Shown here: positions 35,183-47,257 of the stretch, piece after piece
How positions within the stretch are numbered: position 1 is the first letter of the stretch
How the letters are laid out: each line of letters begins with the position of its first letter
DNA from: Candidatus Gastranaerophilales bacterium
GTDB taxonomy: Bacteria; Cyanobacteriota; Vampirovibrionia; Gastranaerophilales; Gastranaerophilaceae
Length of the DNA: 64,000 nucleotides
Assembly (NCBI GenBank): GCA_944326485.1
Contig: CALVED010000003.1
Location: forward strand, 124,001 to 188,000
Direction of reading: 5' to 3'
Notes under the pieces: generated by a model
Told to the model about the DNA's origin: nothing
What the model saw: the letters and a program-made list of their open reading frames with translations, nothing else
The model's database searches: none
Program-made: the position numbers and the translations under genes

Positions 35183-35677
35183 ATGGAGATGGGGAAAATT
35201 TCTAATTCAGTTTTAAATAAAAATACTAAATTATTTTTAGAAAGTACAAATTTAAGTTCTTTATCCTGTGATGATGATAAATTTAGTTCATTAAGCATGT
35301 CTGCGATGCTTGCTAGAGGTGAAGTTCCAGAAGTTCATAGAAGAACTGCTGATAATTATATGGTAATAAAAAAAATATATGGAGCACCTGTTGTTCAACC
35401 ACGTATTAATAATAAAGAAAGAGCTTTGCTCGCAAAATATGACTTTAATCCACTCGAATATTCAACAATTAAGCAAATAAATGAAGAACTGTCTTTTCTA
35501 AAAAGATGGTCAATGTCGCTTGAAAAAAATCTAAGAGCAGATGCTAATGAAATAATACAAATAAGGGCAAAAGAATTAAAATTTCTTGTAGCTTCAAGAT
35601 ATGTTAGTGTAACAAGCGAAATTTATCAAGGTTATAAAGCTCTTGAAAGATATTTTGAAGAAATTTCTAAATACTAA
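35183..35677 (+). CDS. Hypothetical protein, helical
   Basis: I do not recognise this 164-residue protein. The first 45 residues are Ser/Asn-rich and polar; residues about 85-164 look alpha-helical and charged, with alternating Lys/Glu and hydrophobic positions. There is no signal peptide, membrane segment or metal motif. The start region is ambiguous: two ATGs, at 35183 and 35189, with GGAG lying between them and thus too close to the second. It sits alone between divergent mnmG and the convergent ldpA-like gene. Codon composition is like its neighbours, which supports it being real. Confidence 0.6.
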   Translation: MEMGKISNSVLNKNTKLFLESTNLSSLSCDDDKFSSLSMSAMLARGEVPEVHRRTADNYMVIKKIYGAPVVQPRINNKERALLAKYDFNPLEYSTIKQINEELSFLKRWSMSLEKNLRADANEIIQIRAKELKFLVASRYVSVTSEIYQGYKALERYFEEISKY

Positions 35678-36643
35678 TTAAAGATACTTTAATAAATCTT
35701 GAGCGAGTTCTTTAGCAACAGCTATTGCTTTTTTCTTCAATAAGTCATTTTCGAAGAAATTATCATATTGAATATAATCCTTAACAATTTTTCTTGCATA
35801 ACTTCCAATAGCAACTCCATTAACATTAACTTCACATTCTTTTGCTAATTTTGTTGACAAAGAATTTGTACCACCTGATAACAATATATATACAGGCAAT
35901 TTGGCATCATTAATTAATTTGGCAAAAGCAACAGTTTGAAGCGTCGAATTATAATTATTTTCTCCACCGGACATTGGTTTTCCGTCAACTTGCAATATGA
36001 CAGAATATGGTTCAGACTTTTTCAACATTTCTTTTAACATATAAATAATATAATCATCACCAAGCTTTGATCTATCTAAACAAATACTTAACAATCCCTT
36101 ATATAAAGACCTTATTTTATACCAATTATCTATTATTTCATTAGTTTTATCACTTGTACAATGAAATTCTACACAATCAATTTTTTCGGAAATTAAAGGT
36201 AAAAGCATTGTATGTGGAGCCTTATACTTATGTTCTGTAATAATTGCAGAATTTTGACATACATCTAAACATTTAAAACACCCTATACATTTTTTTTCAT
36301 CAACACTGCACTTATTATCCTCAATATATATAGCATTTTGAGGACAAACAGATAAACAAATATTGCAATTAATACATTTTTGATTATTAATAACAGCCTT
36401 TGATACATGCACATCATTCTGAAGTCCTATACTCACACAAATATTTGCTTGAGAATCTGCTCTTTTTAAACCGTTTTCAGCTGCAATCAATACATCTTTT
36501 TTTGCACATATATCAAAGAAATTAAATCCAGCCATTGCATAAACATATACAAGTTTTTCAATCTCTTTAATATTTTCATTACCTGCACCGCAAATTAATT
36601 TTAAACATTTTTTATTTTCTAATATATGTTTTAAAGTTTCCAT
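35678..36643 (-). CDS. ldpA: LdpA-like iron-sulfur protein
   Basis: 321 residues. Two adjacent ferredoxin motifs are intact: Cys90-x2-Cys93-x2-Cys96-x3-Cys100-Pro and Cys119-x2-Cys122-x2-Cys125-x3-Cys129. The N-terminal L-K-L-I-C-G-A-G-N with V-Y-A-M-A-G, and the C-terminal Q-V-D-G-K-P-M-S-G-G and G-S-Y-A-R-K stretches, match what I know of cyanobacterial LdpA, a redox-sensing protein that tunes the period of the KaiABC clock to light. No kai or photosynthesis gene is seen here, so in this organism it more likely has an older redox role. The ATG lacks a Shine-Dalgarno; TATAAT lies 9 nt upstream. Confidence 0.78.
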   Translation of the reverse strand: METLKHILENKKCLKLICGAGNENIKEIEKLVYVYAMAGFNFFDICAKKDVLIAAENGLKRADSQANICVSIGLQNDVHVSKAVINNQKCINCNICLSVCPQNAIYIEDNKCSVDEKKCIGCFKCLDVCQNSAIITEHKYKAPHTMLLPLISEKIDCVEFHCTSDKTNEIIDNWYKIRSLYKGLLSICLDRSKLGDDYIIYMLKEMLKKSEPYSVILQVDGKPMSGGENNYNSTLQTVAFAKLINDAKLPVYILLSGGTNSLSTKLAKECEVNVNGVAIGSYARKIVKDYIQYDNFFENDLLKKKAIAVAKELAQDLLKYL

Positions 36644-36694: not shown

Positions 36695-37237
36695 ATGAAC
36701 ACTATAAATGAAAAAGATTGTTTATTTTTAATAATAGATATACAAGATAAACTTGTAAAAATGGTTAATAACAAATTAATAACAGATAATGCAATTAAGA
36801 TAGCAAAAACAGTAAGAATATTAAACTTACCAACTATAATAACAGAACAATATCCAAAAGGACTTGGAAATACTATTGAAGAAATAAGAAATGAAATTGC
36901 AGATGCAAAATACATTGAAAAGACTAATTTTAGTGCTCTAAATGAGTTTTCAATAAAAGGTGAAATTAAAAAAACAGATAAAAAACAAATCATTATCTTC
37001 GGAATAGAAACACATATCTGTGTACTTCAAACAGCTTTTGATTTACTAAAAGAGGGTTATGAAGTATTTGTTATAAAAGATGCAAGTGCATCACGAAGTG
37101 ATGAAAATAACAATCTTGCACTTCAAAGATTAATGCATGCCGGAGCACAAATATTATCTACAGAAATGGTTATATTTGAACTTTTAAAAAGTTCAAAACA
37201 TCCTAATTTTAAAGAAGTACAAGCACTAATAAAGTAG
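36695..37237 (+). CDS. Isochorismatase-family cysteine hydrolase
   Basis: 180 residues. The Asp15-Lys76-Cys109 triad of the family is visible in I-I-D-I-Q-D, E-K-T-N-F-S and G-I-E-T-H-I-C-V. Members hydrolyse isochorismate, nicotinamide or other amides; the short helical C-terminus here resembles YcaC-like or mitochondrial isochorismatase-domain proteins, and no substrate is assigned. The ATG has AGAGG upstream. It is divergent from the ldpA-like gene and its 3' end overlaps the first radical SAM gene by 12 nt on the opposite strand. Confidence 0.85.
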   Translation: MNTINEKDCLFLIIDIQDKLVKMVNNKLITDNAIKIAKTVRILNLPTIITEQYPKGLGNTIEEIRNEIADAKYIEKTNFSALNEFSIKGEIKKTDKKQIIIFGIETHICVLQTAFDLLKEGYEVFVIKDASASRSDENNNLALQRLMHAGAQILSTEMVIFELLKSSKHPNFKEVQALIK

Positions 37238-38215
37238 TTTTTCAATTCTTTCATAAAGTTCAAAATAAGTACCAAGTTCAAAAGAACGCTGTTTAGTATA
37301 TTTTAATAAATCAAAAATATACTTAGGAATATTATTCTTATTTTCGTTATACCAATTTTCTTCTATATCCAAAATAGTGTAAGATAAACCATCCTCTTTA
37401 TTAGCAATTAACCAATTATCAATTTCGGAAATATAATCATTTACCCCGGGAATAATAATATATTTAGCACTAACATTTGCAATACCAGATGATGTCTTAA
37501 ATTTTGCATATTGTTTTATATTCTGTCTTACAATATCATAACAATCAACATTTTTTATTTTTTTATAAACCTCTTTACTTCCAGAATCAACAGAAATAAC
37601 AAGATGTATTCTATTTTCAGACAAGCCTCTTTCCAGACAAGAAATATATTTTATACCTGAAGAATGAACTCTAATATTTTGAAAACCATTATCAATAAAG
37701 AAAGAAATCAAATTTTCAAATTCATCAAGTAAAGCAGGTTCTCCTCCACCAAATAAAACTTTAGAATTTCTTTTTAAAATTCCGGTATCACACATTTTTT
37801 TAATTATATCAAATACTTTATATGATTTTTTAGAAAAATCCTCCGGATGAATATTAGAATAACAATACATGCACTTTGAGTTGCATTGTGACCAATGACT
37901 TATATACAAAGAGTCTATATAATTTCTTTCATCCCAAGCATCTAGTTTTAGAGAAGGACAATTCATGCAATTAGTATGAATTTTTCCTTTCTTATGAAAA
38001 TATCTGAACTTATCTTTTATTTTAAAAATTCTTTCTAAATTTAAATTAGAGCCATCAAAATTGTCTTGAACAAGCGTATGATTATTAGTATCACTACCAC
38101 AGAAACAACACATTGTAAGTTTTGAAGGAAAAAAGACAAGCCCATGTTCTATCCAAGGACAACTATAATAAAAACCTTCTTTTCTTGATAAATAATTTTG
38201 ATTTAAAACAAACAT
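37226..38215 (-). CDS. Radical SAM protein with N-terminal Cys module, paralogue 1
   Basis: 329 residues. The radical SAM core has C-N-S-K-C-M-Y-C-Y (the CxxxCxxC cluster for [4Fe-4S]/SAM) and F-G-G-G-E-P. Upstream, residues about 15-95 carry the module shared by all five paralogues: C-P-W-I-E-H-G, then C-C-x-C, then C-x2-C and a Trp. The C-terminus shares D-I-E-E-N-W and E-L-Y-E-R with its siblings and has no SPASM-type Cys cluster. The ATG directly follows the paralogue 2 stop with no spacer (AGAAGG is the ribosome site), so it is the last gene of the operon. Substrate unknown. Confidence 0.85.
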   Translation of the reverse strand: MFVLNQNYLSRKEGFYYSCPWIEHGLVFFPSKLTMCCFCGSDTNNHTLVQDNFDGSNLNLERIFKIKDKFRYFHKKGKIHTNCMNCPSLKLDAWDERNYIDSLYISHWSQCNSKCMYCYSNIHPEDFSKKSYKVFDIIKKMCDTGILKRNSKVLFGGGEPALLDEFENLISFFIDNGFQNIRVHSSGIKYISCLERGLSENRIHLVISVDSGSKEVYKKIKNVDCYDIVRQNIKQYAKFKTSSGIANVSAKYIIIPGVNDYISEIDNWLIANKEDGLSYTILDIEENWYNENKNNIPKYIFDLLKYTKQRSFELGTYFELYERIEKLLY

Positions 38216-39253
38216 TTACCTTCTCTTAAATAATTTTTCAATCCAGTTCTTTTTACGATTATAAAATACATTTTGTAAACGCTCATAAAGTTCAAAATTT
38301 GTATGAAGATCATTCGAACGTTTCTTGGCATATTTCACTAAATCAAAAATATGCTTTGGTATATTATCTTTATGTTCATGATACCAATTTTCTTCGATAT
38401 CTAAAACAGTAGTATATAAGCCAGCCTCCTTATTTGCCAAAATCCATTTTTCTATTTCTTCTTTTGTATCATTTATCCCCGGAATAATAATAAACTTTGC
38501 ACTAACAAGATATCTTCCTGTAAAATTTGTTTGAAGTGCATATTTTCTGATATTTTCACGCACAATATCATAACAAGGAACCTGCTTAACTTTTAGGTAA
38601 GTTTCTTTAGAACCGGCATCAACAGAAACAACAACATAACCTCTGATTTCATTTACTGCTCTTGCTATGGCTGGGCTGTATATTATACCTGAAGTATGAA
38701 CTCTTATTCCCCAATAATAATTATCTAATAAGTAATTCATAATATCTTCAAATTCATCAAGCAAAGTTGGCTCACCACCACCAAAAGAAATATCAGCATC
38801 AGCAGTTAAATAACCTTTTTCAACCATATCTTTTATTATTGGTAATGCAGCATATTTTTTCTTATTATCAAAATCTTCTGGATGTACAGATGAAAAACAA
38901 TATATACACTTTGAATTACAATTAGACCAATGACTTATATATAGATTATTAATATATCTACCGCCATCATTCCAATTATCTTCTTTTAAGAAGGGACAAC
39001 CTATACAATTTTTATGTATTTTTCCTTTCTTATGGAATTTTCTATACATCTCTTTTATTTTAAATATTCTGTCCCAATCTATGTTTTGTCCAACATAGTT
39101 ATTTCTTAAAAGAGTGTGACCACCAGATAAATGTCCACATATACAACAATTTGCAATTTTATATTGAAAAAAAACAAGCCCATGTTCAATCCAAGGACAA
39201 CTATAATAACAACCTTCTTTTTTACTTACATACTCTTCTTTATATATGAACAT
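38216..39253 (-). CDS. Radical SAM protein with N-terminal Cys module, paralogue 2
   Basis: 345 residues and the closest sibling of paralogue 1: both open with a K-E-G-x-Y-Y-S-C-P-W-I-E-H-G-L stretch. The radical SAM cluster is C-N-S-K-C-I-Y-C-F, followed by F-G-G-G-E-P. The N-terminal Cys module is complete. It differs by a short basic C-terminal tail (K-N-W-I-E-K-L-F-K-R-R), which could touch a membrane or nucleic acid. GAGGG precedes the ATG. The gap to the upstream paralogue 3 stop is 26 nt. Recent duplication with paralogue 1 is likely. Confidence 0.85.
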   Translation of the reverse strand: MFIYKEEYVSKKEGCYYSCPWIEHGLVFFQYKIANCCICGHLSGGHTLLRNNYVGQNIDWDRIFKIKEMYRKFHKKGKIHKNCIGCPFLKEDNWNDGGRYINNLYISHWSNCNSKCIYCFSSVHPEDFDNKKKYAALPIIKDMVEKGYLTADADISFGGGEPTLLDEFEDIMNYLLDNYYWGIRVHTSGIIYSPAIARAVNEIRGYVVVSVDAGSKETYLKVKQVPCYDIVRENIRKYALQTNFTGRYLVSAKFIIIPGINDTKEEIEKWILANKEAGLYTTVLDIEENWYHEHKDNIPKHIFDLVKYAKKRSNDLHTNFELYERLQNVFYNRKKNWIEKLFKRR

Positions 39254-39279
39254 TTTTACCCTCGTAATTTAGGTTATCA

Positions 39280-40314
39280 TTAATGTATTTTTCGGTCAAT
39301 TTTAGAATATTTATAAACAATGTTTGCTCTATCATACAAATCTAATTCAATATTATTTAATTTAGACATATCTTTAGCAAATAAAACCAAATCAACTACA
39401 TAAGAAGGTATATTATTCACAATTTCATTAAACCAAGCAATATCAATATCCAGTGCCAATTTTCTAATTCCCAAACTTGAACACAACATAAACCAATCTA
39501 ATAACTCTTTATTATTGTCATTATATCCTTTTAATAAAATAAATTTTAAAATAACTCTCTTCTCACCAATTTGTTGCGATTCCAAATATCTTTTAACATT
39601 ACCCAAAACAACATCAAAAGTATCTGTTCCCTTAATTTTCTTATAAAGAAAAGATGTAGCCGCATCAATTGAAATAACAACTTCAGCTATATTTTTAGAA
39701 ATTGCATCTGCAATAGAATGACTAAATTTTATTCCTGATGAATTTATATTTACATTTTCAATACCATAATCAATTAAAAAATATAATAATTTATCAAATT
39801 CAGGATAAATAGTTGCTTCTCCACCTGCAATAGAAAATTTAGTTTTTTGATTTACTAAACCGGCATCAATTAATTGTTCAATAATAGGAATAATATTATA
39901 ATGATTTAAATCTTTAAGATTATTATCTCTAACAGCAGGACAATATATACATCTTGTATTACAATTTGACCAATGTGTTAATAAAATATTTGAAAAAAAA
40001 CTTTTCTCTTCCCAAAAATCACTTTTTAAAAATTGACAACCGATACAAGAATCAGGAATAATATTATTTCTTACCATATCCTTTAATTCTTGTTTTTTTC
40101 TTAAAATCTTATCAACATCAAGCCAAATACCATTAAAAGAATCTTCAAGTACATAACGACCTTTACCGACATGGCTTTGCTCACAACATACTCTTACGAT
40201 ATTTGCATGGTCAAAAATAATACCATACTCGAGCCAATCACAACTTATATACTTTTTTTCCCCTTTAAGAGAGAGAGAAACATCACGCAAATACTTTCTA
40301 ACTTTTGAAAACAT
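39280..40314 (-). CDS. Radical SAM protein with N-terminal Cys module, paralogue 3 (divergent)
   Basis: 344 residues from the ATG at 40314, which has AGG at a good distance; a GTG three codons upstream gives the longer frame. It has an extra basic N-terminal segment of about 20 residues before C-D-W-L-E-Y-G. The SAM cluster is intact (C-N-T-R-C-I-Y-C-P), but the next motif reads A-G-G-E-A instead of G-G-G-E-P, and a Cys that the other four share in V-x-C-Y/F is a Thr here. It is thus the most divergent copy and may act on a different substrate or have lost activity. Confidence 0.82.
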   Translation of the reverse strand: MFSKVRKYLRDVSLSLKGEKKYISCDWLEYGIIFDHANIVRVCCEQSHVGKGRYVLEDSFNGIWLDVDKILRKKQELKDMVRNNIIPDSCIGCQFLKSDFWEEKSFFSNILLTHWSNCNTRCIYCPAVRDNNLKDLNHYNIIPIIEQLIDAGLVNQKTKFSIAGGEATIYPEFDKLLYFLIDYGIENVNINSSGIKFSHSIADAISKNIAEVVISIDAATSFLYKKIKGTDTFDVVLGNVKRYLESQQIGEKRVILKFILLKGYNDNNKELLDWFMLCSSLGIRKLALDIDIAWFNEIVNNIPSYVVDLVLFAKDMSKLNNIELDLYDRANIVYKYSKIDRKIH

Positions 40315-40326
40315 TAATAACACCTG

Positions 40327-41304
40327 CTAATTATATTTAGTATTATGTTTCATTTCTCTATCTATCTTAAGGTTTGAGGCCCGTTCATATAACTCACAAC
40401 TTTCAATGTTATATTGAGAATAAGACTTATAAACAAAATCAAATATTACATATATATACTGAGGAATATTATCTCTATTCTCCTTAAACCAATTATCTTC
40501 AATATCGAATGCAATATGCTTGATTCCGGACTCGTAAGTTTTTTTCATCCAATTTTTAACTTCATTTAAATCGTCATTAACTCCAGGAATCAAAACATAC
40601 TTTGTTCGAATAAGTCCATTTTTAGCTTTGGCATAATTTGAAAGATTCTTCCATACTCTATCATAACAAGGAACATGTTTTATTTTCTCATATAGCTTTT
40701 TTGAACTTGAATCAACTGAAGTAATTAAAGTAATCTTGCCAAGTTTTAAGCCTTTCTCAATGGCTGGAGAATATTTTATTCCATCAGAATGAATTCTTAT
40801 ATTGTAAACATCATAATCTAATAAAAGATTAACCAAATCTTCAAATTCACTAAGAATAGTAGGTTCTCCACCACCAAATGTAATTGTAGCTTTTTTAGAA
40901 AGGACACCTTTTGCTATCATATCTTTTATTACAGGAAAAATATTATATGTTTTATTATTATTAAAGAAATTCTTATCTTTTTCAGTATAACAATATATAC
41001 AATTACAATTACAATGTGTAAAATGACCAATCAAAACTTCATCAATATAATCATCATCATTCCACTCTTGCTCTTTAAGATAGTAACATTCAAAACATTT
41101 ATCCGGAATAATACCTTTTTTAATATTTTCCCTCATTATTTTTCTATTTTTTAAAAGTTCATCCCAATTTATAAGCTCACCTTTATAATTATTAATTTGT
41201 ATGATGTTACCACCACCAGGATGAGAGCTTATACAACAAATTTGGACTGAATTAGAAAAAAAAGTAATACCATGTTCTAAATGTATACAACTTATATATT
41301 TCAA
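40327..41304 (-). CDS. Radical SAM protein with N-terminal Cys module, paralogue 4
   Basis: 325 residues, first gene of the four-gene minus operon. The start is TTG at 41304: it gives M-K-Y-I-S-C, matching the ATG-started M-K-Y-L-S-C of paralogue 5, and GATGGG lies upstream. N-terminal module: Cys6, E-H-G, Cys23-Cys24, a G-G-G loop, then C-x2-C. SAM cluster C-N-C-N-C-I-Y-C-Y, followed by F-G-G-G-E-P. A promoter with a 17-bp spacer lies 37 nt upstream of the start. It precedes paralogue 3 by 12 nt. Confidence 0.85.
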   Translation of the reverse strand: MKYISCIHLEHGITFFSNSVQICCISSHPGGGNIIQINNYKGELINWDELLKNRKIMRENIKKGIIPDKCFECYYLKEQEWNDDDYIDEVLIGHFTHCNCNCIYCYTEKDKNFFNNNKTYNIFPVIKDMIAKGVLSKKATITFGGGEPTILSEFEDLVNLLLDYDVYNIRIHSDGIKYSPAIEKGLKLGKITLITSVDSSSKKLYEKIKHVPCYDRVWKNLSNYAKAKNGLIRTKYVLIPGVNDDLNEVKNWMKKTYESGIKHIAFDIEDNWFKENRDNIPQYIYVIFDFVYKSYSQYNIESCELYERASNLKIDREMKHNTKYN

Positions 41305-41340
41305 AATTAATACCCATCAACTGTTTTAAATACAATAATT

Positions 41341-41369
41341 ATTATACATATAAGAAAAAACAAAGACAA
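41341..41369 (-). promoter_or_regulatory. Promoter of the radical SAM operon (paralogues 4-3-2-1)
   Basis: Minus strand: TTGTCT, 17 bp, TATAAT. Predicted start near 41334, giving a 30-nt leader with a ribosome site before the TTG start at 41304. Confidence 0.6.
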
Positions 41370-41454
41370 GAATATAATCTGACATAGCAAATTATTATCA
41401 ATTAATCTTGAATCAGTTCTAAAATTATTGTCATAAAACATAAAACAAAGTTTC

Positions 41455-41483
41455 TTGACTAAAAAAAACTAAAATGCTAACTT
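41455..41483 (+). promoter_or_regulatory. Promoter of radical SAM paralogue 5
   Basis: TTGACT, a 17-bp A-rich spacer, TAACTT. It lies 24 nt before the ATG at 41508, with GAGGAAG between. It faces away from the operon promoter within the same 203-bp spacer. Confidence 0.55.
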
Positions 41484-41507
41484 AATAAAAGAGGAAGTTA
41501 TATACAA

Positions 41508-42473
41508 ATGAAGTATTTAAGTTGCAGATATATAGAGCATGGCTTAGATTTTGAGCATACAAGACTTGAGACTTGTTGTTTTACTTGCCATTCGGGCGGT
41601 GGGCACATTACCTTAAAAACAGACTATAAAGGTGAAATGATAGACTGGGAAAAGTTATTTGAGCAGAAACGCAAATATAGAGAAGAACATAGAAAAGGTA
41701 ATATACTTCCAAACTGTAAAGGATGTGTTTTTTTAGAAGAGAAAGAATGGGATGAAGAAGATTATATTAATTTTCTTCAGTTTAACTATTGGGTTCAATG
41801 TAATAGTAAGTGTTCATATTGTTATGAAGTACAGAATAAAAAAATGTTTGATAAAATCAAGCCCTATAATACTGTTCCAATAATAAAAGAAATGATAGAT
41901 AAAAACATATTAAGGACTGGAGGAGAAGTAGCCTTTGGAGGCGGAGAACCAACTATTGCCCCTGAGTTTGAAGATTTAATAAATCTACTTACAAATAGTG
42001 GATTTAGAAATATGAGAATTCACTCTTCAGGTATAAAATTTTCTCCAGCAATTGAAGACGCAATAAAAAAAGGTGTATTAAATGTTGTCATATCAATAGA
42101 TTCTGGATGTGAAAAAACTTATAAGAAAATTAAATCTGTAAACTGTTTCAAAAAAGTAGTTGAAAATATGAAGAAATATGCTGCTGCTAATAAAAATAAT
42201 TATGGCTTAATGACTTCTAAATATATAATAATTCCAAATGTTAATGATAATAGAAAAGAAATTGATTTATGGATTGAAACAGTAAAATCTATAGATGGGA
42301 AATGGTTAGCTGTTGATATAGAAGATGTTTGGTATAAAATAAACAGAGCAACTATTTCGCCATATTATTTAGATCTTATTAACTATATTATTAACAGAGC
42401 TAATGAATATAATATGAAAGTTGAATTATATGATAGAGCTCGAGGATTAAAAGAAGGAAAAAATCAAATATAA
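41508..42473 (+). CDS. Radical SAM protein with N-terminal Cys module, paralogue 5
   Basis: 321 residues, divergent from the other four. N-terminal module: Cys6, E-H-G at 10-12, Cys23-Cys24, G-G-G at 30-32, Cys70-x2-Cys73, Trp81. SAM cluster Cys98-x3-Cys102-x2-Cys105-Tyr, then F-G-G-G-E-P. The C-terminus keeps D-I-E-D-V-W and E-L-Y-D-R-A. It is closest to paralogue 4 at the N-terminus, consistent with an inverted duplication around the shared promoter region. Gene 42581, a candidate cysteine peptidase, follows in the same direction after 107 nt. Confidence 0.85.
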   Translation: MKYLSCRYIEHGLDFEHTRLETCCFTCHSGGGHITLKTDYKGEMIDWEKLFEQKRKYREEHRKGNILPNCKGCVFLEEKEWDEEDYINFLQFNYWVQCNSKCSYCYEVQNKKMFDKIKPYNTVPIIKEMIDKNILRTGGEVAFGGGEPTIAPEFEDLINLLTNSGFRNMRIHSSGIKFSPAIEDAIKKGVLNVVISIDSGCEKTYKKIKSVNCFKKVVENMKKYAAANKNNYGLMTSKYIIIPNVNDNRKEIDLWIETVKSIDGKWLAVDIEDVWYKINRATISPYYLDLINYIINRANEYNMKVELYDRARGLKEGKNQI

Positions 42474-42580: not shown

Positions 42581-43954
42581 ATGTTAAAAATTTCTCAATT
42601 TAATAATATTAATTTTCCAATAACTGAACAAAAGAAATGCAAAGAATTATCAACTAATACAATTCAGAGCAAAGAAGAAAAACAAAATTTTGTTCAATAT
42701 TCTGCTGAAAATCTAAAAGCATACATACCTTCTTTTTCTGCAAAGCAAAAAGAAACAAATAACACGAATAATATACCTTCAAGAAATCAACAAATAAGAA
42801 CAATTAAATCAAAATTAGACAAAAATTCACAACTTTTGCTAAATAGATTAGAGCAAAATGGAATATTAGATGATAATAACTCTAACGACGGTTCAACGGT
42901 TCTTGACAATTTATACAAAATAGCAACAGAACCAAGAATAAGAGGTCTTTCTGATACATTGATAATAACTGAAGTTTTAAAAGCATTAGATAATCCATTT
43001 TCTATTACACAAAAATTTGGAGATATTCCTGAAAATGTAGCTAAGGCAATTGAACAAGAAACAGGAGAAATAATACCTGAAAAAGCAAAAAACGTAGTTT
43101 CATCTTCTTGTGTAGTTGCAAGTATGGAATTTAATCTTGCAAGCAAAAAACCGGCGGAATTTGTAAGATTTGCACAAGGATTATCAAGTAATAATTACTC
43201 TGTAACTAAAAACATTAAAATGTCTGATATTTCAAGCGGAGTAGCAGAAGGGTTATGGAAGCTTAGAGAATTTAATACAGAAAGTGAACTTAATAATTGG
43301 GAAGATATAACAATAAAATTAAAACCAGATAGAAATGCAATTGTAAGAGCTCGTGTTCAAACATCCTATAAAGATCCAAATGAACGTTCTTGCATTGATG
43401 TTTTAATTCAATCAGCATTGCTGAATTTAGGTTCACAAAATACATATGATGCAATCATAGATGAAAGAACAGGTAAATTTAATCCGGATAAAAGCGGTTT
43501 AACAGATTTCGAAAAAACATTTGTTGAAGAAGTTGTATTCGAAAATCCGAAAATTTCTGTTGTATATCAAAACTTAGATGAAAATGGATATTTAACAGGT
43601 TATAATTGTGAACCGCAAGAAACAAAGCAACATATATTAAAATCTTTAGAATTAGGCCAAAATGTAATTGTGGGATATACACATCTTGACGAAAATAACA
43701 AAGTTGATGGTGGTCATGAAATAACAATAATTGGCTATGAAAAAGACGAAAATGGCAAAGGCTTCTTTATTTGTAATGATACAGATGATAATAAAGATGC
43801 ACCTGTAAGTATAAGTGAAGAAACTTTATTACCATTGATTCACCATGCCGGTATTTCAAAAGAAGCACTAAATCAAAATGATTACATTGTTGAACCTTGG
43901 CGTGAATATTTAGAACAAATAAAAAAAGATTTTACTAATAATAAAGCAGCATAA
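42581..43954 (+). CDS. Candidate papain-like cysteine peptidase
   Basis: 457 residues; no family recognised with confidence. The C-terminal half shows a possible papain-type triad: Cys in S-S-S-C-V-V-A-S-M-E-F near residue 177, His in G-G-H-E-I-T-I-I-G-Y near residue 387, and Asn/Asp in I-C-N-D-T-D-D near residue 408, with the H-x-I-x-I-x-G-Y context typical of C1/C39-like folds. The first 75 residues are polar and contain P-S-F-S-A-K, the clade-type N-terminal motif, with no conventional signal peptide. AGAAGG lies 13 nt before the ATG. It sits between radical SAM paralogue 5 and the PTEPT-repeat gene. Confidence 0.55.
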   Translation: MLKISQFNNINFPITEQKKCKELSTNTIQSKEEKQNFVQYSAENLKAYIPSFSAKQKETNNTNNIPSRNQQIRTIKSKLDKNSQLLLNRLEQNGILDDNNSNDGSTVLDNLYKIATEPRIRGLSDTLIITEVLKALDNPFSITQKFGDIPENVAKAIEQETGEIIPEKAKNVVSSSCVVASMEFNLASKKPAEFVRFAQGLSSNNYSVTKNIKMSDISSGVAEGLWKLREFNTESELNNWEDITIKLKPDRNAIVRARVQTSYKDPNERSCIDVLIQSALLNLGSQNTYDAIIDERTGKFNPDKSGLTDFEKTFVEEVVFENPKISVVYQNLDENGYLTGYNCEPQETKQHILKSLELGQNVIVGYTHLDENNKVDGGHEITIIGYEKDENGKGFFICNDTDDNKDAPVSISEETLLPLIHHAGISKEALNQNDYIVEPWREYLEQIKKDFTNNKAA

Positions 43955-44314: not shown

Positions 44315-47257
44315 TTATACATATACATCAATGGAATCTATATTTGCTTTTTTAGAATTTCCCATTTTAGATAATATATAAGATGTTAATTTAGAAGCCA
44401 TTGTTGTTTTTTGTTGTGAAGACTCAGTTGATGAAGCCGAACTATAACTATTAGTCTGTGACAATAATTCTGGTTCATCCTCTTTTTCAGGAGTTTCTAC
44501 TGGAGTTTCATCACAAGTTGGCTCATCTGGCTCGGTTGGTTTTGTTGGCTCATCTGGCTCGGTTGGTTTTGTTGGCTCATCTGGCTCGGTTGGTTTTGTT
44601 GGCTCAGTCGGCTCAGTTGGTTTTGTTGGCTCAGTCGGCTCTGTTGGCTTTGTCGGTTCTGTTGGCTCAGTCGGTTTTGTTGGTTCATCCGGCTCAGTCG
44701 GAGCTGTTGGTTCTGTTGGTTCTGTTGAGCCAGTTGGAAGAGTTGGTTCTGTTTCACCAGTTGGCTCTTGAGTTGGAACAGTTGGACAAGTCGGCTCTGT
44801 TGGTTCAGTAGGTTCTGTTGGTTCCGTTGGTTCTGTTGATTCCGTTGGTTCAGTCGGAGCTGTAGGTTCAGTCGGAGCTGTAGGACCAGTTGGAGCAGTT
44901 GGCGTTGTTGGTTCCGTTGGCTCAGTTGGAAGAGTTGGTTCTGTTTCACCAGTTGGTTCTTGAGTTGGATTTGTTGGACAAGTTGGTTCTGTTGGTTCCG
45001 TTGGTTCTGTTGGTTCAGTCGGACCAGTTGGTGTTGTTGGAGTTGTTGGTTCTGTTGGATCTGTCGGTTCAACAGGATCAACTTCTGAGCCACCCTCCGT
45101 AGGTCTTATAGTTGGGTCTGTCGGTTCTGTTGGAACAGTTGGAGTCGTTGGTTCCGTTGGAGTCGTTGGCTCTGTTGGTATTGTTGGAAGAGTTGGTTCT
45201 GTTTCTTTTGTTGGCTCTTCAGTAGGAACAGTCGGACAAGTTGGTTCTGTTGGAGTCGTTGGCTCTGTTGGAGTTGTCGGCTCAGTCGGTCTTGTTGGCT
45301 CAGTCGGTCTTGTTGGCTCAGTCGGTCTTGTTGGCTCAGTCGGCTTTGTTGGCTCTGTTGGAGTCGTTGGCTCAGTCGGTCTTGTCGGCTCAGTCGGTCT
45401 TGTTGGCTCAGTCGGTCTTGTTGGCTCAGTCGGCTTTGTTGGCTCTGTTGGAGTCGTTGGCTCAGTCGGTCTTGTCGGCTCAGTCGGCTTTGTTGGCTCT
45501 GTTGGAGTTGTTGGCTCTGTTGGTCTTGTCGGCTCAGTCGGTCTTGTTGGTTCAGTTGGTTTTGTTGGTTCAGCTGGTTTTGTTGGTTCAGCTGGTTTTG
45601 TTGGACATTCATAAGGTCTTAATGTAGCACATTCATTAATTCTATAATTAAACTGAGGTAAGTTTAATTTAACTCCATCTTCAAACCTTGAAGCTCCATT
45701 TTCATCAACAAAAGAATATGTCATTAATCTATTAATATTAATTGTGGAGTGTTGAAGAATTTCATCTAAAGTTTTACCTTCAGTATCATAATCTTTATCA
45801 ACATCAAACACACCATAATTATGAATACCATTTTTGTCTTCATACTCTGTTGCGAATATATCTAAATTTGCATATACAACTTGTTGTAATATTTGTGCTG
45901 CAAACTCATCTACATAATTAACATCTTTATTTAATACTAATTCACCATCAACAACAACAGCAAACCTGCCGTTTCCATCCGGAGAATTATAGAATTGAAG
46001 AACATCTGCCAACTTAAATACTTGACCTTCTTCCATCAATCCATCTTCATTATCATTATCAACAATTGAAATAGATAAATCATTTTGTCCATCTACTACG
46101 GCAGATGGAGAAATTTGATAAACAATACCGTCTCTATTTCCAGAGTCAACATCAGCATTTTGTGCTGCAGTTCTTAATGTTGTAACAGTAGGAAGAGAAA
46201 TGCCTAATAATTCTTTATCTGTATTTTCATCAAGAGTTCTATTTAAATCATTTATATTAGCTGTATCAATAATATCATTAAAATTCATTTCATCTAAGAT
46301 GTATTCAAATTCAGCTGCATTTTCCGGAGAATTAACAACAGCATATACAATATCTCTATATGCTTCATCTGAAATATCTTTACCATACATACCATAAATC
46401 ATATCAGAGAATGATGAATATTCACCGTCTAACAACTCACCGCCATCTTTAATTACACTGGCAGAATTAGAAGAAGGTGTATATTGAGATGAAGAATTTA
46501 TAAATGAAACATTATCAGGTTCTTCGCCCTGAACTTGGTAAACAATAGAAGTAGGCATTGTTAATAATCTTGTATCTAAAGATTCATCACTACTAGTAGA
46601 ACCTTTATATAAATCAAGCCCGCTTATTTTTTCATAACTTCTTGCTTTGTCACCCATTTCTTGATGAATATATTCAGCTAAAGATGGATTTGCTTGAATG
46701 ATTTCATCAATAATTTTATTTTTTATAGCTGATTTTTCATCTTCATCATAAGATTCTAAAGCATCTGAATATACTTTTGAAATTATCTCATTTAAAGTAT
46801 TACCACCGGTCGAATCATCTGAAGCATTTTCCGTAATAGTTACAATAATAGTTCCTTCATCGTTTCTTGGTAATTCTTCATTTGGATACAATATAACTTC
46901 ACCATCAGAATTTGTAAAATAAAATTCACTTACAGGAATAGAAAATAGAGAAACATCTGCTAATACTGTTTTATCAATACGTCCTGAATCTTTTAATGCA
47001 TCAGCTTGGGCAGCTATATCTTCAGCTGATTGAGCTGCTGACTGAGAATCAACAATAGAAGCATTTTGATTTGCATTATTTGTATTTACACAACTTACCA
47101 TTGGAACTGTCATTAAAGCTGCAGTACCAAGCAATGCTGCTCTTTTTGCTGTATCTTTCTTCCCTTCAAAAGACACATTGCTTTTTTCTTTATTTATATT
47201 TGCTTTCTCTATTTTTTTATAGTTGTAAATGTTCGGTGTAATATTGCTTATTCTCAT
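44315..47257 (-). CDS. Large PTEPT-repeat surface-type protein
   Basis: 980 residues. Residues 1-60: polar leader with N-V-S-F-E-G-K-K, then a hydrophobic stretch ending A-L-M-T-V-P-M-V-S-C, which could be a lipobox (V-S-C). Residues about 60-550: acidic and globular-looking, with no family I recognise. Residues about 551-914: P-T-E-P-T-[KRT] hexapeptides, with three higher-order blocks containing C-P-T-x-P-T and E-T-E-P-T-L-P-T. Tail: Ser-rich, then a short basic segment, no LPxTG. Thr/Pro repeats of this type usually act as extended, often glycosylated, surface stalks; that role is inferred. AAGGAG precedes the ATG. Confidence 0.75.
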   Translation of the reverse strand: MRISNITPNIYNYKKIEKANINKEKSNVSFEGKKDTAKRAALLGTAALMTVPMVSCVNTNNANQNASIVDSQSAAQSAEDIAAQADALKDSGRIDKTVLADVSLFSIPVSEFYFTNSDGEVILYPNEELPRNDEGTIIVTITENASDDSTGGNTLNEIISKVYSDALESYDEDEKSAIKNKIIDEIIQANPSLAEYIHQEMGDKARSYEKISGLDLYKGSTSSDESLDTRLLTMPTSIVYQVQGEEPDNVSFINSSSQYTPSSNSASVIKDGGELLDGEYSSFSDMIYGMYGKDISDEAYRDIVYAVVNSPENAAEFEYILDEMNFNDIIDTANINDLNRTLDENTDKELLGISLPTVTTLRTAAQNADVDSGNRDGIVYQISPSAVVDGQNDLSISIVDNDNEDGLMEEGQVFKLADVLQFYNSPDGNGRFAVVVDGELVLNKDVNYVDEFAAQILQQVVYANLDIFATEYEDKNGIHNYGVFDVDKDYDTEGKTLDEILQHSTININRLMTYSFVDENGASRFEDGVKLNLPQFNYRINECATLRPYECPTKPAEPTKPAEPTKPTEPTRPTEPTRPTEPTTPTEPTKPTEPTRPTEPTTPTEPTKPTEPTRPTEPTRPTEPTRPTEPTTPTEPTKPTEPTRPTEPTRPTEPTRPTEPTTPTEPTTPTEPTCPTVPTEEPTKETEPTLPTIPTEPTTPTEPTTPTVPTEPTDPTIRPTEGGSEVDPVEPTDPTEPTTPTTPTGPTEPTEPTEPTEPTCPTNPTQEPTGETEPTLPTEPTEPTTPTAPTGPTAPTEPTAPTEPTESTEPTEPTEPTEPTEPTCPTVPTQEPTGETEPTLPTGSTEPTEPTAPTEPDEPTKPTEPTEPTKPTEPTEPTKPTEPTEPTKPTEPDEPTKPTEPDEPTKPTEPDEPTCDETPVETPEKEDEPELLSQTNSYSSASSTESSQQKTTMASKLTSYILSKMGNSKKANIDSIDVYV
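44512..45607 (-). repeat. 18-bp coding tandem repeat (PTEPT hexapeptides)
   Basis: About 1.1 kb of near-perfect 18-bp units inside the surface-type gene, coding P-T-E-P-T plus Lys, Arg or Thr. Three longer blocks with the C-P-T and E-T-E-P-T-L-P-T variants are spaced through it, so it grew by both unit slippage and segmental duplication. Copy number is likely to vary between strains. Confidence 0.93.

Follow-up and report, generated by a model that had tools for sequence, protein, structure and literature searches.

The LdpA family of clock-input proteins extends to non-photosynthetic, clockless relatives of Cyanobacteria

The closest described systems for the protein studied here are LdpA of Cyanobacteria (PF12617; NF045992), known as a light and redox input of the circadian clock, and Ycf23 (DUF561, PF04481). 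Passages of two papers state that LdpA senses redox by an Fe-S cluster, co-purifies with CikA and KaiA, and controls the level of CikA (PMC13421787, PMC6378743). Where it treats the ldpA mutant of Synechococcus elongatus, the second of these describes it only as a period mutant whose CikA level is insensitive to light, with no hint of an enzyme (PMC6378743). A 2026 review lists, in its section on the matter, the action of LdpA on CikA as unresolved (PMC13421787), and a survey published in 2017, which covered 11,264 genomes, has a passage calling LdpA exclusive to Cyanobacteria (PMC5520375). According to the parts of two papers on Melainabacteria that deal with these regulators, RpaA and RpaB are kept and SasA is missing (PMC3787301; also PMC4040986); a term search in the accessible text of each found LdpA unnamed. 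Our literature searches found no paper on LdpA in Melainabacteria, none linking LdpA with "TIM barrel," and none on DUF561.

We analyzed a stretch of 64,000 nucleotides, hereafter the window, from the genome of a Candidatus Gastranaerophilales bacterium (1.9 Mb, 97% complete). An earlier note, made from the letters of the sequence, had recognized in it an LdpA-like protein with ferredoxin and LdpA motifs. This was borne out: the interval it gave is exactly one reading frame, on the minus strand, which the note had left unstated, and both motifs that it quoted are present (Table 1). The search it had proposed with the LdpA C-terminal domain model returned this gene as the sole match of the genome, at 73.5 bits for a Pfam gathering cut-off of 22.2. 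Several Fer4 models also match the protein, and LdpA_Fe-S-bd (PF25160) remains under its cut-off (22.1 vs 27.6). Eight cysteines make up two 4Fe-4S motifs (residues 90-100 and 119-129) lying between the N-terminal strands and LdpA_C, which, with the score, places the protein in the LdpA family in the wide sense. A chance ferredoxin match was considered and rejected, since the PDB sequence matches listed cover approximately residues 50-145 and LdpA_C lies mostly outside that part.

Table 1. Features of the LdpA-family gene and its two direct neighbors (positions in the window)
Feature	Position	Strand	Evidence or remark
164-aa convergent neighbor	35183..35677	plus	Pfam: no match
LdpA-family CDS	35678..36643	minus	321 aa, ATG at 36643; frame fills interval exactly
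GSYARK motif, residues 280-285, end of strand 8	35789..35806	minus	sequence, predicted model
LdpA_C region, residues 151-293, barrel strands 4-8	35765..36193	minus	PF12617 E=2.1e-20
QVDGKPMSGG motif, residues 218-227, end of strand 6	35963..35992	minus	sequence, predicted model
Ferredoxin insert, two 4Fe-4S motifs, residues 81-138, between strand 3 and helix 3	36230..36403	minus	Fer4 models, predicted model m83372b0250ac, Cys conservation
Barrel strands 1-3, DUF561/Ycf23-like, residues 4-71	36431..36634	minus	PF04481; hhalign with Ycf23 98.7%
Isochorismatase-family hydrolase, divergent neighbor	36695..37237	plus	PF00857 E=4.5e-32

Calling the gene LdpA in the strict sense, as the note did, does not hold. 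The NCBIfam model CircClkLdpA (NF045992) matches residues 7-296 with E=9.8e-44, but its 149.9 bits stay below the curated 450; the protein belongs to a clade separate from oxyphototroph LdpA, and it has no ycf45 neighbor. With the same model, the single phototroph protein tried reaches 589.9 bits, and seven proteins from non-phototrophs or Omnitrophota range from 87 to 174 bits. From these sequence comparisons we class the window protein as an LdpA-family member and not as an LdpA equivalog. It shares with cyanobacterial LdpA a full-length homology, the two 4Fe-4S motifs, and the same near-invariant residues. It differs in the first cluster loop, CX2CX2CX3CP here and CX3CX3CX3CP in 40/40 oxyphototroph rows, and in a host genome without KaiA or KaiB. 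All 40 oxyphototroph rows, which come from 36 genomes, have the CX3CX3CX3C loop, and 0 of the 97 other rows do; a clock-linked change was considered. Neither is the protein a Ycf23: PF04481 matches residues 4-71 only (E=3.8e-5, 23.4 bits vs a cut-off of 21.6), there is no full-length insert-free match, the ferredoxin insert is present, and the genome has a separate Ycf23 of its own (2.4e-71).

The divergent arrangement of the gene with the isochorismatase-family hydrolase is common to four genomes of the window's genus (G000, G196, G226, G228). Nearby, at 37226-42473, are five adjacent paralogous radical SAM genes (PF04055), four on the minus and one on the plus strand, of about 320-350 aa each. 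Two further frames, at 44315-47257 (minus, 980 aa) and 42581-43954 (plus, 457 aa), are without any Pfam match.

How widespread is this family? LdpA_C is present in 286 of the 292 genomes sampled from the phylum, in a single one of 14 control genomes (Synechococcus elongatus), and in 9 of 285 genomes of Omnitrophota, a phylum sampled as that of the first matching Omnitrophota genome. A scan of named genomes with two narrow peptide patterns, which says nothing on absence from other phyla, gave 13 loci; these include Tanganyikabacteria, Sericytochromatia, S15B-MN24, UBA7694, UBA8530, RYN_339, Vampirovibrionales, and two Candidatus Omnitrophota. Hence, a family known only as a light and redox input of the clock extends to non-photosynthetic relatives that have no clock. 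The earlier note had seen no kai or photosystem genes around the window gene, and this now applies to the whole genome (97% complete), where KaiA, KaiB, and Photo_RC gave no match and a strong two-domain KaiC was not found. PF06745 matches there at best over a fragment of 74 positions (2.4e-11), compared with 1e-77 to 1e-83 in phototrophs; at low score PF06745 is uninformative for KaiC, since it matches in all 14 control genomes. The Kai oscillator that accompanies circadian LdpA is thus lacking in this genome. We rejected the idea of a photosynthetic remnant or a contamination because there are no reaction-centre genes, the gene is in the interior of a 206-kb contig, and close relatives have it in the same setting.

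The same genes were sought in 36 chosen genomes, 5 with reaction centres and 31 without, the latter being the window's genome and 30 picked among LdpA_C-matching genomes (a further set of 63 genomes was likewise picked from genomes matching LdpA_C). Photo_RC was found in 0/31 non-phototrophs vs 5/5 phototrophs, KaiA in 0/31 vs 4/5, and KaiB above the cut-off in 2/31 (G013 and G096) vs 5/5, with two more non-phototrophs below the cut-off. Kai-like genes are not wholly missing from the non-phototrophs, since G044, G013, and G001 have multi-domain KaiC-like matches. The distribution of the family fits an origin before the clock or independent of it, and the clock role of LdpA is probably a later addition. 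The suggestion that the fold predates its use by the clock, made in the earlier note, is in part sustained: the family occurs in nearly every sampled genome, including non-phototrophs without reaction centres or KaiA, and clade I shares both the fold and the ldpA-ycf45 order. Yet, the absence of kai genes could also reflect loss, given the KaiB-like matches in 2 of 31 genomes.

Phylogenetic trees split the family in two. Clade I contains oxyphototrophs, Sericytochromatia-type families, and one family (f3) of the window's class; clade II contains the window's own family (f1), f2, f17, and Omnitrophota. Both f17 and Omnitrophota share a single clade with the window's family (support 100/100), in a tree that used 10 of the 30 oxyphototroph rows and omitted the very long branch f1_G156; another family tree was made without f1_G156 and the short omni_G490. 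The window protein therefore does not group with oxyphototroph LdpA. A single row of Vampirovibrionales, L090, falls with the oxyphototrophs, on a branch that is long and of unsure placement. In AU tests on groups named after the tree was seen, Omnitrophota as one clade was rejected (p=0.001), as was f1+f2+f3 without Omnitrophota and f17 (p=0.0001), whereas f1+f2+f3+f17+Omnitrophota was not (p=0.445). These trees indicate that clade II was exchanged with Omnitrophota. Since the class-only group is rejected and the larger one is not, vertical descent in the class plus later exchange and import are both allowed. Because its clade was exchanged with another phylum, the window gene alone cannot date the family. 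Recent transfer across phyla had been named beforehand as an outcome that would count against an old fold; an exchange was indeed seen, but the branches are long, so it was not recent.

Gene order separates the same two clades. It was compared at 109 of 110 loci (omni_G324 gave no LdpA match), using mechanical frames and BLAST grouping, with which false frames may arise in G+C-rich genomes. A Ycf45-like gene, AAA/SpoIIIAA-like by Pfam, lies directly downstream at 18/26 clade-I loci vs 0/83 clade-II loci; within clade I this order occurs in phototrophs, in Sericytochromatia-type genomes, and in one family of the window's class. A simple vertical ldpA is unsupported for the window copy in view of its clade with Omnitrophota, the AU tests, and this missing linkage. 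On the strand of LdpA and at a distance of no more than three genes, genes named by Pfam as HAD, HMGL-like or HpcH/HpaI aldolase, or cytidylyltransferase are found at 22/72 loci of the window's family and 8/8 of Omnitrophota, and at 0/2 of f17, 0/1 of f2, and 0/26 of clade I. In 21 of 25 occurrences the HAD (phosphatase) gene is directly downstream of LdpA on the same strand, with gaps of -89 to +10 bp. The window copy has none of these neighbors and faces the isochorismatase-family gene. Elsewhere in its genome (G000:C2:225001-241000, L239) there is a polysaccharide-type cluster, most of it named by eye, with an HMGL-like gene beside cytidylyltransferase-like and HAD-like genes and no LdpA.

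Other settings were seen within the window's family. At nine loci with divergent LdpA sequences (G130, G142, G152, G156, G261, G267, G283, G288, G290), LdpA is followed on the same strand by genes that we named by eye as TilS-like and Hpt-like. A beta-lactamase-like gene (PF13354 1.3e-56 in one member) is directly upstream on the same strand at 25/72 loci. Three genomes (G182, G271, G152) have two clade-II copies in differing gene settings.

What kind of protein is it? The predicted model of the window protein, built with 14 sequences (mean pLDDT 92.0, pTM 0.91), has strands at residues 13-17, 42-46, 67-73, 157-161, 184-190, 215-220, 252-256, and 276-279, alternating with helices. According to this model the protein is a complete (beta/alpha)8 TIM barrel interrupted by the ferredoxin. 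The same architecture, in the same order, is predicted for a Sericytochromatia protein of clade I (pLDDT 89.3, pTM 0.87). Profile alignment with 19 Ycf23 proteins (hhalign, 98.7%, E=1.9e-16, 229 aligned columns) leaves the ferredoxin as a gap, so that LdpA appears, from alignment and model together, to be a Ycf23-type barrel carrying a ferredoxin insert. The two barrels correspond end to end, with K, D, S, E, Q, D/E-G, and GG/GS positions aligned, and differ in that Ycf23 is without the insert. Among structures, the best VIA-align neighbor is ribulose-5-phosphate epimerase (Z 17.6, rmsd 3.1, 201 residues), and hexulose-6-phosphate synthase, KDPG aldolase, TrpA, and Pdx1 come within about 1.2 Z units of it; barrels that handle phosphate make up most of the highest-ranked rows (Z 16-17.6), and the likeness seen with them is one of fold, at 10-15% identity. 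Predicted models and structural neighbors thus agree on the (beta/alpha)8 fold of phosphate-binding TIM-barrel enzymes. Likeness between TIM barrels is frequent, and the firm structural claim is "TIM barrel" only, since the Foldseek list is headed by other barrels (pyruvate kinase) at low TM-scores.

The pattern of conservation suggests more than a scaffold. In an alignment of 138 rows (133 distinct; the window protein and four oxyphototroph genomes appear twice), identity reaches at least 98.5% at 24 positions, of which 7 belong to the ferredoxin and 17, none of them Cys, to the barrel. The median identity between clades is about 30%, and these barrel residues match the cluster cysteines in constancy. 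The zone at the C-terminal ends of the strands (87 of 259 positions) holds 16 of the 17 (hypergeometric p=1.2e-7) and the N-terminal zone 1, a test that rests on predicted strand limits, with the pocket geometry taken from strand positions. The polar ones are K15, D44, S71, D77, H79, E159, H161, Q218, D220, and R284. It is at the C-terminal strand ends that TIM barrels have their active site. Our best reading, to which we give a little better than an even chance, is that the LdpA family is one of Fe-S TIM-barrel enzymes and that the clock role is derived. The candidate activity is inferred from conservation and predicted structure. The inserted clusters would sit on the active-site side of the barrel, and the glycine motifs of strands 7 and 8 resemble the phosphate-holding ones of such barrels. 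The barrel may act on a small phosphorylated substrate, either receiving electrons from the clusters or being gated by their redox state, as an oxidoreductase or redox-gated enzyme; the type of substrate is a guess. In phototrophs the clock would later have come to read out the same protein, via CikA and KaiA, and in heterotrophs the enzyme alone would remain. For the clade shared with Omnitrophota, the neighbors suggest keto-acid or sugar-acid chemistry, and against this stand the 50 of 72 loci of the window's family, the window's included, that have no cassette genes within three genes, as well as the HMGL/HAD/cytidylyltransferase cluster of the window's own genome, which is without LdpA.

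The earlier note had presented LdpA as a redox sensor, and the enzyme-like pocket suggests that sensing may not be its basic activity. The contrary possibility is that LdpA is purely a redox sensor or adaptor, in which the barrel is a scaffold, the clusters sense quinone or redox state, and in heterotrophs regulators of the RpaA/RpaB type receive the output in place of the clock. The cyanobacterial work cited at the outset agrees with it, as does the retention of RpaA, RpaB, and NblS in Melainabacteria reported in parts of two papers (PMC3787301, PMC4040986). But it is not obvious why a scaffold would require ten near-invariant residues, polar or charged, at the C-terminal ends of its strands, and the pattern is kept in Omnitrophota, with aldolase, phosphatase, or cytidylyltransferase neighbors at 8/8 loci, so we regard a pure sensor as unlikely. 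A clock ancestral to the whole phylum and lost in heterotrophs, with LdpA as its leftover, could explain the KaiB-like matches above cut-off in two non-phototrophs and the multi-domain KaiC-like ones in three; we consider it highly improbable, as pocket residues conserved across all lineages with an identity of 100% or close to it are unexpected of a leftover and KaiA occurs in none of the 31.

A further alternative concerns the window gene and is silent on the ancestry of the cyanobacterial one: the gut family may have imported it, from Omnitrophota or an unsampled lineage, replacing a vertical clade-I copy. Such an import is compatible with the enzyme reading. The fully supported clade with f17 and Omnitrophota, the rejection of the class-only group, the exact order LdpA-HAD-HMGL-HpaI common to G182, G194, and Omnitrophota G544, and the missing ycf45 linkage all point this way. 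The Omnitrophota gene, however, is present in only nine of the 285 genomes sampled and does not form one clade, while nearly all genomes of the window's family have it, which makes export equally simple; the larger group that the AU test did not reject fits vertical descent plus export. Import is thus a serious possibility that we would still sooner doubt than accept. Returning to the enzyme, the fullest version that we can propose is more tentative and falls somewhat short of an even chance: LdpA would be primarily a phylum-wide and so far undescribed Fe-S TIM-barrel enzyme, arisen by ferredoxin insertion into a Ycf23-type barrel, with the redox input of the clock as its readout; a second clade would have been exchanged with Omnitrophota along with genes of a surface-sugar pathway that code for an aldolase and a phosphatase.

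That the family occurs in another phylum and in almost every relative sampled, those without a clock too, and that a pocket like that of an enzyme is conserved throughout, opens the way to a direct test by the search for a ligand and by mutations of the pocket compared with mutations of the cysteines. If LdpA is an enzyme, the clock of Cyanobacteria would have its redox input coupled to a metabolic reaction.
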